Both the position numbers and the translations under genes were made by a program. A stretch of 64,000 nucleotides of DNA, taken from the NCBI GenBank assembly GCA_016212095.1, contig JACRHH010000002.1, forward strand, positions 58,997-122,996, in the 5' to 3' direction. This DNA comes from Nitrospirota bacterium. Its GTDB lineage: Bacteria > Nitrospirota > Thermodesulfovibrionia > SZUA-242. Position 1 is the first letter of the stretch. Every line of letters begins with the position of its first letter. Below are positions 52,184 to 56,308 of the stretch, in pieces. The notes under the pieces were generated by a model, which was not told the DNA's origin, did not search any database, and was given only the letters and a program-made list of their open reading frames with translations.

Positions 52184-53296
52184 ATGGGCGAGTTTTTCGA
52201 TCTCAAGTACGAAAGCGCCGTAGACCGGATGGCCCGCGAGGGCGTTTCACGGCGCGACTTCATGAAGTTCTGCACCGCCATGGCCGCCGCTCTGGCTCTT
52301 CCCGCTTCGATGGCTCCGAAGATTGCCGAGGCTATTGAAACGCGGAAAAAGCCGGTGGTGGTATGGCTCGAATTCCAGGACTGCTGCGGCAACACCGAAT
52401 CGTTCCTTCGCGCAAGCAAGCCGACGGTTGCCGAAATCGTTCTCGATGTCCTTTCCGTTGACTACCACGAGACGATCATGGCGGCTGCCGGGCATCAGGC
52501 CCATGCCGCGCTCGACGGCGTTGTTAAGAACCTGAAAGGCCAGTACATCGCCATTGTTGAGGGTTCCATTCCGATGAAGGACGGCGGAGTTTACTGCTGC
52601 ATCGGCGGGCGTTCGGCAATCGACATTGCCAAAACCGTATGCGGCAACGCGCTTGCAACCATCGCCGTGGGCAACTGCGCGTGGGACGGCGGACTGCCCG
52701 CGGCGGCTCCAAATCCAACCGGCGCTGTGGGCGTGGGCGCTGCCGTTCCGGGCATCACGCTTCTTAATCTGCCCGGCTGTCCGATGAACGCCGAAAATCT
52801 TACCGCCGTGGTTGTTCACTTTCTGACGTTCGGCACGCTTCCGGCCTGCGATTCAAAGGGCCGCCCTCTATTTGCCTACGGCAAGCGCATTCACGACAAC
52901 TGCGAGCGGCGGGCGCATTTCGACGCCGGACAGTTCGTGCGCTCATGGGGCGACGATGGCCACCGGAAGGGCTGGTGTCTGTACGAGATGGGCTGCAAGG
53001 GGCCGTCAACATTCGCCAACTGCCCAACGATGCGCTTCAACGAAAAAACAAGCTGGCCGGTTCAGGCCGGCCACGGCTGCATCGGCTGCGCGTCGGATAA
53101 TTTTTGGGACACCGCAACGCCGTTTTACAGGCGGCTGCCCAATGTTCCCGGCTTCGGCGCGGACGCAACCGCCGACAAGATCGGCGTCGGCGTTGTGGGC
53201 GCGGCTGCGGGCGCGGCTATCGCGCATGGAATCGGGCGGTTGATGTCGGGCAAGAAGGATGAGGAAACTTCAACAAATCGCAGGGAGGAAGGTTGA
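52184..53296 (+). CDS. hyaA: [NiFe] hydrogenase small subunit, Tat-exported, with altered proximal-cluster motif
   Basis: A 370-residue group 1-type small subunit carrying three FeS clusters. A Tat signal (SRRDFMKF, 22-29, then a hydrophobic stretch) exports the folded dimer. Distal and medial ligands are normal: [31 protein letters not shown] and GHGCIGC. The N-terminal proximal-cluster motif, usually QxCTGCTE, reads QDCCGNTE: Cys67 is kept, residue 70 is Asn and a Cys occupies position 68. A C-terminal hydrophobic segment ([17 protein letters not shown]) may anchor it. Operon order small subunit, large subunit, cytochrome b, protease is standard. Confidence 0.93.
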
Positions 53297-53297
53297 A

Positions 53298-55001
53298 ATG
53301 GCGAAAATTGTTATCGATCCGATCACAAGAATTGAAGGGCATCTGCGCATCGAGGCGAAGGTTGAGGGCGGCAAGGTGGTTGACGCGTGGAGCTCAAGCA
53401 CCATGTTTCGCGGCATCGAACTTATAATGAAAGGGCGCGATCCGCGAGACGCCTGGGCTTTCGTCCAGCGAATATGAGGCGTTTGAACCACGGTTCACGC
53501 AACCTGCTCCGTGCGAGCGGTAGAAAACGCCTTGGGAATCACAGTTCCGGACAACGCCCGGATTATCCGTAACCTCATCACCGGAAGCCAGTACGTTCAG
53601 GATCATGTAATACATTTTTACCACCTTCACGCCCTCGACTGGGTTGACATCGTCAGCGCGCTCTCGGCTGATCCGGCCAAGACCTCCGCGCTTGCGATGT
53701 CGATTTCCGACTGGCATAACTCCAGCGCCACCTACTTTGCCGGAGTGAAGGCGAAGGTGAAGAGCTTCGTGGATTCCGGCCAGCTTGGGCCGTTTGCAAA
53801 CGCATATTGGGGCCATCCGGCCTACAAGCTTCCGCCTGAGGCGAACCTCATGGCGGTTGCCCACTACCTCGAAGCGCTCGACTGGCAGCGCGATGTTATC
53901 AAAATGCACGCCATTTTGGGCAGCAAGAACCCGCACGCGCAGACATATCTCGTGGGCGGCATGGCTATTCCGATCGACCCGAACAGCCAGAACGCAATCA
54001 ACGCCGACACCATCGCGTTCATGAAAAAGCTCACGGTGAAGGCGAAGGAGTTCGTGGAAAAGGTTTATATTCCCGATCTGCTTGCTGTCGCATCGTTCTA
54101 CAAAGACTGGGCGGCGCACGGCGCGGGCGTTGGAAACTTCCTTGCCTACGGCGAGTTTCCGAACGATTCGGTGTCGAACACCGAAAACCTCTGGCTGCCG
54201 CGCGGCATCATTTTGAACAAGGATCTTTCCAGGGTTCATCCGGTGGATCATTCAAAGATCGAAGAGTATGTCACACATTCCTGGTACGATGACGACGCCA
54301 ACAAGTCGCGCCACCCGTGGGACGGCAAGACCGCGTTCAACTACACCGGGCCGAAGCCGCCGTATGAATTCCTCGACACCGACGCCAAATACAGCTGGAT
54401 CAAGTCGCCGCGCTACGAAAACAGGGCGATGGAGGTCGGTCCGCTTTCAAGAATGCTGGTGGCGTATGCGTCTGGCCACAAGCGGGTGCAGGAGGTTGTG
54501 GGGCTTGTGCTTTCGAAGCTGAACGTGGGGCCGGAGGTTCTTTTCTCGACGCTTGGCCGGGTTGCGGCGCGCGGCGTTGAAACCCTCGTTGTGGCCGAGA
54601 AGGTTCCTCTGATGATCGACGAGCTTGTTGCCAACATAAAAAAAGGCGACTACCGGGTTCATGACGACACGAAGTGGGAGCCGTCCTCATGGCCCGCCGA
54701 GGCGAAAGGTTACGGCATGTTCGAGGCTCCGCGCGGGGCGCTTGGGCATTGGGTGAAGATCAAAAACGGCGCAATCGACAACTACCAGTGCATCGTTCCA
54801 AGCACATGGAACGGCTCTCCGCGCGACGCGGCTGGCGTTCGCGGGCCGTATGAGGCGGCGCTTATCGGCACTCCGGTTGCCGATCCGGAAAAGCCGGTCG
54901 AGATACTTCGCACAATTCATTCGTTCGATCCGTGCATGTCGTGCGCCGTGCATGTGGTCGATCCGGCGGGAAACGAAGTGACCAGCGTGAAAATCGTGTG
55001 A
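53298..55001 (+). CDS. hyaB: [NiFe] hydrogenase large subunit with two in-frame TGA codons at the N-terminal nickel-binding cysteines (predicted selenoprotein)
   Basis: The frame from ATG 53298 to 55001 would give 567 residues, the normal length. It is broken only by TGA at 53475-53477 (residue 60) and 53484-53486 (residue 63). The surrounding sequence [26 protein letters not shown] is the conserved L1 motif RICGVCTxxHxxxSVRAVE, so both TGAs replace exactly the two Ni-binding cysteines. The C-terminal L2 motif DPCMSCAVH (Cys546, Cys549) is normal and followed by 15 residues that the protease should remove. TGA is a normal stop in adjacent genes. Best reading: Sec60 and Sec63; a UGA-decoding tRNA-Cys is the alternative. 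Simple gene callers would split it at 53477 and 53511. Confidence 0.85.
53478..53531 (+). promoter_or_regulatory. SECIS-like stem-loop directly after the first TGA
   Basis: GGCGTTT (53478-53484) pairs perfectly with AAACGCC (53525-53531). Inside, CACGG (53489-53493) pairs with CCGTG (53509-53513) and GCA/TGC closes a small apical loop near 53502-53504. The apex lies about 25 bases after the first TGA and 16 after the second, within the range of bacterial SelB-binding SECIS hairpins, and the second TGA sits on the stem. Bacterial SECIS sequences are weakly conserved, so this is structural inference. Confidence 0.5.
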
Positions 55002-55016
55002 TCCGGAGGTCATGCC

Positions 55017-55703
55017 ATGAGCGCCAATACCATGAATGAAAAAATCGGATCGCAAAGACGCGTCTATGTTTGGGAGTTCCCGGTTCGGCTCACGCATTGG
55101 GTTAACGTCGCGGCCATAACCGCGCTTTCCGTAACCGGCTTCATGATCGGCGGCCCGCATGTGCATTCTGTGCATACGGAGGATTTCGCAATGGGCATGT
55201 TGCGGTTTATCCACCTGCTTGCCGGTTACGTTTTCGTTGCAAGCCTGCTCGTTCGGCTATACTGGGCGTTTGCCGGAAACGATTTCGCATCGTGGCGGCA
55301 TCTGTTTCCGTTTGGGCGGCCAAAGGCCTGTTCCGTTTCGGAAAACCTGAAATACTACCTTTTCATGGGTGGACAGCCGCCGTTTGCGGTGGGCCACACA
55401 GCGCTGGGCGGCGTGTTCTACTGCGTTATCTGCGTGGTTTACATCGTCATGTTCACCACCGGATTCGCGCTTCACCAGCAAAGCATCTATCCGGCCTTCG
55501 CCAAATTCATGGGCGGATGGATGTGGTGCTCGCTGCCGCTTCAGACCGTGAAGCTGGTTCATCACGTCTCGATGTACGCGATAATCGGCGCAGTGGTAAT
55601 GCACATCTATATCGCGATGTATCTGGACAGGGCCGAAAAGAACAGCCTGATCGGAAGCATATTTGACGGCTACAAGATACTCACCGGGCGGGAGAGGTGT
55701 TGA
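55017..55703 (+). CDS. hyaC: Hydrogenase b-type cytochrome subunit
   Basis: A 228-residue integral membrane dihaem cytochrome b that passes electrons from the hydrogenase to the quinone pool. Four or five helices are visible; likely haem ligands are His in VRLTHWVN, RFIHLLAGY, VKLVHHVSMY and VMHIYIAMYL. GGAGG precedes ATG 55017, 15 bases after the large subunit. Its presence marks the enzyme as a membrane-bound respiratory (uptake-type) hydrogenase. Confidence 0.92.
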   Translation: MSANTMNEKIGSQRRVYVWEFPVRLTHWVNVAAITALSVTGFMIGGPHVHSVHTEDFAMGMLRFIHLLAGYVFVASLLVRLYWAFAGNDFASWRHLFPFGRPKACSVSENLKYYLFMGGQPPFAVGHTALGGVFYCVICVVYIVMFTTGFALHQQSIYPAFAKFMGGWMWCSLPLQTVKLVHHVSMYAIIGAVVMHIYIAMYLDRAEKNSLIGSIFDGYKILTGRERC

Positions 55704-56308
55704 CCGAAACACCTTCCGCGCTCCGGACACACTCCGCCGCCGGGAATATGGCAGATCCCGGCGGCCGGTGTGAGGATTTTACCAACCGCCTTGAACAAGG
55801 CGGCGGGTTTACCAACCGCCCTGAACAGGGCGGCGGGATTCTGGTTCTCGGCCTCGGCAACATCCTGATGTCCGACGACGGGGCCGGTGTGGAGGCGGCG
55901 ACCAGGCTGCAGAAACGCTTCGCCCCCATTCCGGGCCTGTCCATCGTGGACGGCGGAACGCTTGGGCTCGACCTTCTGCCGATGATCGAGGACGCCACGC
56001 ACCTTCTGATTATCGACGCGGTTGTGAAATCCGACGACTCGCAGCCCGGCGAAATCGTCCGCATCGACGGCGACGACATATCGGCGTTTTTCTCCACCAA
56101 AATATCCCCGCACCAGATGGGCATGAAAGACCTTTTCTTCTGCGCCCGGCTTCAGGGCCGAATGCCGAAACATGCCGTGTTGCTTGGCATAACCGCCGGA
56201 AGCCTCGATGTTGGCGTGGGGCTCACGCCGCCGGTGGCAACGGCGGTTGATGCGCTTGTGGACGCGGCGGTGGAGGAGTTGAGGGGGTGGGGAGAGGATT
56301 GTCTGTGA
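55697..56308 (+). CDS. hyaD: Hydrogenase maturation protease with repeat-derived N-terminal extension
   Basis: A 203-residue HyaD/HybD/HycI-type endopeptidase that trims the large-subunit C-terminus after nickel insertion. The family core ILVLGLGNILMSDDGAGVEA starts only at residue 48. Residues 28-47 are two copies of FTNR[L/P]EQGGG encoded by a tandem palindromic repeat. GTG 55697 overlaps the cytochrome stop; ATG 55748 is internal. No start codon with a ribosome site adjoins the core, so the extension is probably translated. Confidence 0.88.
   Translation: MLTETPSALRTHSAAGNMADPGGRCEDFTNRLEQGGGFTNRPEQGGGILVLGLGNILMSDDGAGVEAATRLQKRFAPIPGLSIVDGGTLGLDLLPMIEDATHLLIIDAVVKSDDSQPGEIVRIDGDDISAFFSTKISPHQMGMKDLFFCARLQGRMPKHAVLLGITAGSLDVGVGLTPPVATAVDALVDAAVEELRGWGEDCL
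55736..55837. repeat. Palindromic and tandem repeats inside the protease gene
   Basis: A hairpin CCGCCGGGA / TCCCGGCGG (about 55736-55763) is followed by two 30-bp units (55778-55807 and 55808-55837), each TTTACCAACCGCC, TTGAACAAGG or CTGAACAGGG, CGGCGGG, with an internal palindrome around TGAAC. Both units are in frame. Confidence 0.8.

Follow-up and report, generated by a model that had tools for sequence, protein, structure and literature searches.

Two in-frame UGA codons at nickel-ligand positions of a group-1 hydrogenase large subunit: a predicted double-selenocysteine enzyme of Nitrospirota and Chloroflexota

Introduction

When an otherwise intact hydrogenase gene carries TGA at exactly the two codons of its N-terminal nickel-ligand cysteines, are these codons stops, errors or selenocysteine (Sec)? 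This question is raised by a gene in a 64,000-nucleotide stretch of a Nitrospirota genome (hereafter the window, to which all coordinates refer), for which an initial annotation had proposed a possible double-selenocysteine hydrogenase. In classic [NiFeSe] hydrogenases (HysA of sulfate reducers; VhuA/VhuU and FrhA of methanogens) a nickel-ligand cysteine is likewise replaced by Sec encoded by UGA. The Sec of these enzymes, however, sits in the C-terminal motif, whereas the window gene has two UGAs in its N-terminal part and a C-terminal DPCMSC. Evans and co-workers reportedly engineered an E. coli hydrogenase with one Sec in 2021. We analyzed the window gene, its relatives and the decoding machinery of their genomes.

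Results

The large subunit gene (53298..55001, plus strand) encodes 567 residues when both internal TGAs are read. Read-through translation confirmed that a single frame is broken only by UGA 1 (53475..53477, plus strand; residue 60) and UGA 2 (53484..53486, plus strand; residue 63), with a terminal TGA at 54999-55001. Both codons indeed fall on cysteine positions of the L1 motif, which reads RI-TGA-GV-TGA-TTVH, and the C-terminal motif DPCMSCAVH is intact, providing Cys546 and Cys549. The read-through protein matched the whole hydrogenase domain PF00374 (804.9 bits, profile positions 1-508 of 508), which, together with its close solved group-1 relatives, places it among group-1 large subunits. 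Thirteen NCBIfam models matched without exceeding their cut-offs, and the HysA model NF045518 reached 434.8 bits against a cut-off of 780. The nearest solved structure was 3myr (737 bits, query residues 3-552), and E. coli Hyd-2 scored 592 bits, its residues 4-566 aligning with residues 3-566 of the window protein. The cysteine pair of the N-terminal motif in 3myr and 1h2a aligned with residues 60 and 63. We take residues 60 and 546 to be terminal and 63 and 549 to be bridging ligands in this fold; UGA 1 would thus lie at a terminal nickel site and UGA 2 at a bridging Ni-Fe site, leaving cysteine codons at only two of the four ligand positions. The nickel cysteines of Hyd-2, as given in the accessible text of PMC11212049, are 61, 64, 546 and 549, the equivalents of residues 60, 63, 546 and 549 in the window protein.

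Family-model matches bore out that the operon is complete. The large subunit gene is preceded by a small subunit gene with a twin-arginine (Tat) signal (52184..53296; TIGR00391 445.1 bits, PF14720, PF01058) and followed by genes for a b-type cytochrome subunit (55017..55703; TIGR02125 138.5 bits, PF01292) and a hydrogenase maturation endopeptidase with an uncertain start codon (55697..56308; TIGR00072 140.5 bits, PF01750), all on the plus strand. Judged from these protein families, the operon fits a membrane-bound uptake (H2-oxidizing) enzyme that is predicted to pass electrons through cytochrome b. All four genes end in TGA, so this codon is an ordinary stop here, as had been stated for the neighboring genes, and the two internal ones are special. 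The proximal-cluster motif of the small subunit reads DCCGN, with Asn in place of the usual fourth Cys. This position held Cys, Asp and Asn in 23, 22 and 15 of the 60 loci read with two UGAs, and in 25, 12 and 12 of the 49 read with two cysteine codons; given this similar mix, the Asn is not tied to Sec.

A chance pair of nonsense mutations should not recur at the same codons. In a search of the window's class within Nitrospirota (101 genomes: the window's own and 100 relatives), 71 genomes had a match, of which 47 carried two TGAs and six carried one TGA in the gene. All 53 TGA-bearing genes were fetched; TGA pairs always occupied residues 60 and 63, and a lone TGA was always at residue 63. 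The recurrence of the same pair in 47 of the 71 matching genomes excludes chance, which the initial annotation had already considered very unlikely.

We extended the comparison beyond this class. Denoting the residues at positions 60 and 63 by C for Cys and U for a TGA, the best 80 of 594 confirmed matches in named genomes included ten U..U genes, assigned by their titles to Nitrospirota and Chloroflexota, and two C..U genes, from a Leptolinea bin and a bin labelled Deltaproteobacteria. Two of the U..U loci (L094 and L096) were identical over the motif region to loci of the class relatives (L078 and L046). In a class of Chloroflexota (probably Anaerolineae), 57 of 396 genomes matched, with a two-TGA gene in 25 and a one-TGA gene in five; 40 of the 60 match rows were fetched, including every row with an internal stop. 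Two of these genomes each carried one U..U and one C..U copy (L179 and L207 in G287; L206 and L199 in G161). Two other hits, with a TAA and a TAG, were considered as candidates for a different recoding and rejected, since these codons (residues 137 and 26) are not part of the motif. Altogether 190 loci were examined, and a motif could be read in 186, the exceptions being L056, L120, L134 and L210. In this sample, which is weighted to near relatives of the window, there were 82 U..U, 13 C..U and 91 C..C motifs and none of the type U..C, so that TGA stands at residue 60 in 82 and at residue 63 in 95 of 186. Removal of identical regions left 74 U..U, 13 C..U and 90 C..C.

In an alignment of the kind that the initial annotation had called for, TGA paired with Cys at both sites and never with another residue in any of the 186 motifs, the pairing expected of a selenoprotein. 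The C-terminal motif could be read in 181 homologues and was C..C in every one of them; five others were unread. Among the best 120 of 7,999 database proteins, 117 had Cys at both sites, two (P0088 and P0119) were unread, and the remaining one, P0002, was a 496-residue prediction, 96% identical to the window protein, whose start lies beyond the UGAs. None of the names shown for the best of these 7,999 proteins denoted a selenoprotein, and none of the 103 records from a plasmid search reached 60% identity.

The same two codons could also mark a decayed gene or a run of assembly errors, a thought that is natural as most assemblies used here are drafts and the judgement was made from assembled sequence. 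We consider this barely conceivable, since the two codons recur in 82 of 186 motifs, including that of the single-contig genome G007, and since the gene is demonstrably constrained. Two-UGA genes were compared in ungapped pairs of equal length with a dS of 0.1-1.2; median dN/dS was 0.085 behind the UGAs (range 0.012 to 0.51, 76 pairs) and 0.092 before them (75 pairs); some pairs contain one gene fetched from two collections and the pairs are thus not independent. The codons downstream of the UGAs are under purifying selection. The concern that a second, intact copy might have released this one to decay also proved unfounded: the window's genome (2.97 Mb in 39 contigs, listed as 100% complete) yielded no second group-1 large subunit in a whole-genome search. 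Its two other large-subunit matches had 33% and 32% identity, and lay in one stretch of contig C6, the gene of which has an intact RICGICS motif. A second, distant large subunit on C6 (L018) has its N-terminal cysteines intact and lacks a C-terminal extension, its TGA following directly on DPCISCSVH.

The same selection data bear on whether ribosomes might stop at the UGAs and restart downstream, giving a shortened protein. A frame from GTG 53511 would indeed yield 496 residues, and the database prediction P0002 has that start. Such a protein would lack two of the four nickel ligands, and constraint is as strong on the part before the UGAs as on the part behind them. We therefore give this reading practically no weight and return to full-length translation with both UGAs decoded.

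Decoding as Sec needs a dedicated apparatus, and the initial annotation had named selA, selB, selD and tRNA-Sec as the genes to look for. All four were found in the window's genome: a tRNA-Sec with a UCA anticodon, a selB scoring above its cut-off, selA, and a selD with its own TGA at a UxxK site. Of the 52 further TGA-bearing relatives, 50 had selA; it was missing in G092 (78% complete) and G050. It was also present in 11 of the 12 genomes behind the named contigs (missing in G107), at least two of which, judged by the places of selA, are also among the 52. As selB occurred in 93 of the 101 class genomes whatever their hydrogenase, co-occurrence of the machinery is weak evidence inside the class. 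Among the 47 two-UGA genomes, selB was not found in G050 and G074, and no tRNA-Sec was found in G035, G038, G048, G050, G066 and G078, even with a second search. The only tRNA-Sec-model matches in G055 and G085 turned out to be tRNA-Ser, which leaves tRNA-Sec in 39 of the 47. The 20 best matches fetched from two-UGA genomes all read UCA. G050 has two UGAs and lacks selA, selB and tRNA-Sec; either its bin is incomplete or it is a genuine exception.

UGA could in principle be read as cysteine instead, which would make the enzyme an ordinary [NiFe] hydrogenase. Contig C5 of the window's genome contains a tRNA-Sec-like gene (L002:1501-1598) with an encoded U before CCA, near an open reading frame that resembles serC; its anticodon is GCA. 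This gene fits a tRNA-Cys of the selC* type. Such tRNAs have been described from Nitrospirae and other groups, and some of them carry UCA (PMC7609411, accessible text), so that both a suitable tRNA elsewhere and a related gene in this genome speak for cysteine insertion. The search for a UCA-anticodon tRNA-Cys, however, gave none in the window's genome. Twenty weaker tRNA-Sec-model matches, 19 from two-UGA genomes and one from G049, comprised nine with GCA, ten of the Ser type and one (L233) that is the UCA tRNA-Sec of G022 cut by a contig end; a Cys-type UCA tRNA was found neither among these nor in the window's genome. Because the selC*-type tRNA-Cys here has GCA, and because selA, the maker of Sec on tRNA-Sec, is present in 50 of the 52 TGA-bearing relatives, we regard decoding of the UGAs as cysteine as highly unlikely and insertion of Sec as the preferred reading.

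Bacterial Sec insertion would require a SECIS hairpin 3' of the UGA. A predicted hairpin core occupies 53504..53520 (plus strand), with a stem of 53504-53509 and 53515-53520 and the loop CGUGC at 53510-53514; the loop starts 23 nt past UGA 2 and 32 nt past UGA 1. Folding all two-UGA sequences to a single consensus found almost nothing, because the hairpin occurs in two registers, and testing these separately resolved it. In register A (first base of UGA 1 = 0), bases 29-34 pair with 40-45 and enclose a loop of five bases, in most cases CGUGC or CGUGA; register B has a shifted stem with a bulged C and a GGUGA loop. All six pairs were formed in 69 of 74 distinct U..U genes (37 in register A and 32 in register B), compared with 8.8 expected from resampling of synonymous codons, and in 8 of 13 C..U genes (0.6 expected). 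For C..C genes the count was at chance level (13 of 90; 11.3 expected). Five U..U genes missed at least one pair, and three C..U genes formed a different hairpin that was also seen in three C..C genes.

Covariation was evaluated in 44 distinct register A sequences that had been selected for forming five or all six of the pairs, so their 98.5% pairing is partly by construction. The covariation score was 0.380, compared with 0.098 in shuffles (none of 500 as high) and at most 0.059 in slid controls, and 38 cells had changed on both sides (12.8 in shuffles). Two further counts did not stand out from the shuffles: three pairs were doubly changed (shuffled mean 2.3), and six pair types occurred (shuffled mean 7.1). 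The codons that carry the pairs changed together even across amino acids (TGC/GCA 18, AGC/GCT 14, GCC/GGC 9, GCT/AGC 4), with one combination, AGC/GCG (4), breaking a pair. Register B showed no covariation; it is uniform and rests on kinship alone. We do not claim a lower stem of 53478-53484 with 53525-53531, for which the single informative pair covaried weakly in U..U genes (Fisher p 0.006, kinship uncorrected) and not in C..C genes (p 0.56). The residue that best separated U..U proteins from their near Cys homologues, again uncorrected for kinship, was residue 68, which lies in the hairpin region and whose identity is therefore probably set by the RNA.

As the C..U genes have the hairpin at the same place, we read it as serving UGA 2 and, in U..U genes, both codons. 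It is conceivable that only UGA 2 is read efficiently as Sec, while UGA 1 halts the majority of ribosomes or is read as a different residue. The distance from the hairpin to UGA 2 is constant in C..U and U..U genes and close to that in selD, where the first hairpin folded behind the UGA, itself a candidate, has its loop after 21 nt; UGA 1 lies 32 nt off. Yet UGA 1 persists in 82 genes, Cys is its only counterpart in homologues, and two-UGA genes have extra fixed codons around it. The Ile codon directly upstream (53472..53474, plus strand) is ATA in 72 of 74 U..U genes, compared with 2 of 13 C..U and 6 of 90 C..C genes, and the Thr codon at +5 (53490..53492, plus strand) is ACG in 73 of 74, 4 of 13 and 22 of 90, respectively. 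These two codons, near-fixed only in two-UGA genes, may help the reading of UGA 1. We consider restriction of Sec to UGA 2 unlikely and prefer Sec at both codons.

Finally, we followed the motif states on a tree that FastTree built from 172 distinct proteins after masking of the two motif residues; the program warned of long branches. The three states needed 17 changes (shuffled mean 65.2). C..C versus the rest needed 12, all 12 forced by starred branches, and the corresponding numbers for C..U and U..U were 8 and 10; gain and loss are indistinguishable on this tree. The family thus appears to have swapped selenium and sulfur on many occasions. In every one-Sec gene read, the predicted Sec lay at the bridging position, as if recoding began at this site.

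Discussion

Taken as a whole, the gene very probably encodes a group-1 large subunit in which both UGAs are read as Sec by the SelB and tRNA-Sec of the same genome. The double UGA occurs in dozens of genomes of two phyla, mostly with a conserved hairpin, and on this basis both codons are predicted to be Sec. The double-selenocysteine proposal of the initial annotation is hence supported by sequence-level tests, from which we infer Sec insertion. The hairpin 23 nt past UGA 2 is the likely SECIS for that codon, and the same hairpin probably serves UGA 1, nine bases upstream. By homology, the mature enzyme would carry a terminal selenolate and a second one that bridges Ni and Fe, and Cys546 and Cys549 would complete the ligand set. 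As a best guess by analogy, selenium would help an oxidized nickel site to recover; for classic [NiFeSe] enzymes, the accessible text of PMC13188914 mentions a proposed protection of nickel from irreversible over-oxidation.

How does this enzyme compare with known systems? Known classic [NiFeSe] enzymes carry a single Sec at the nickel site, and Table 1 of PMC13188914 lists their motif as UxxC. Single Sec residues have been engineered into two E. coli hydrogenases, Hyd-1 and Hyd-2 (Evans and co-workers, 2024 and reportedly 2021), at sites equivalent to 60 and 63; those variants are man-made, with one Sec at a time inserted via UAG, whereas the window gene has two natural UGAs. According to the accessible text of PMC11212049, all four single Cys-to-Sec variants of Hyd-2 oxidized H2 at lower activity, with C546U as the variant of markedly different voltammetry. 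We therefore expect the enzyme to tolerate selenium at residues 60 and 63. Two Sec residues separated by two others are likewise found in the UxxU selenoproteins of Table 1 of PMC13188914 (Prx-like, mercuric reductase-like and FmdB families), but these belong to other protein families and none is listed as a hydrogenase. Conversely, P0003, a Cys-type group-1 [NiFe] hydrogenase, shares 79% identity over its full length and the same motif context, but has Cys at both positions.

The table of this 2026 review covers 119 families or subfamilies and contains no group-1 large subunit and no UxxU hydrogenase; its Sec-bearing hydrogenase subunits are all UxxC or CxxU, and the review text, in its accessible part, treats [NiFeSe] enzymes as restricted to methanogens and sulfate reducers (PMC13188914). 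We found no report of an N-terminal Sec in a natural hydrogenase among the titles and abstract starts listed for the mainly open-access literature covered. On our best reading, the genes represent an undescribed family of hydrogenase selenoproteins in which selenium is predicted to occupy a terminal and a bridging position at the nickel. That they form a natural [NiFeSe2] family in the fuller sense, with Sec at both positions, one shared SECIS for UGAs nine bases apart, a stepwise origin from the bridging site and repeated exchange of selenium and sulfur across Nitrospirota and Chloroflexota, we hold to be reasonably probable.

Nature here seems to use at once two nickel positions that chemists changed singly in E. 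coli enzymes. The natural series of C..C, C..U and U..U enzymes offers material for testing the role of selenium at terminal versus bridging positions, and the hairpin is a possible case of one RNA signal serving two UGAs. P0002, whose gene model is truncated at the UGAs, illustrates how enzymes of this kind can go unnoticed, and H2 oxidation by these lineages may consequently be under-called.
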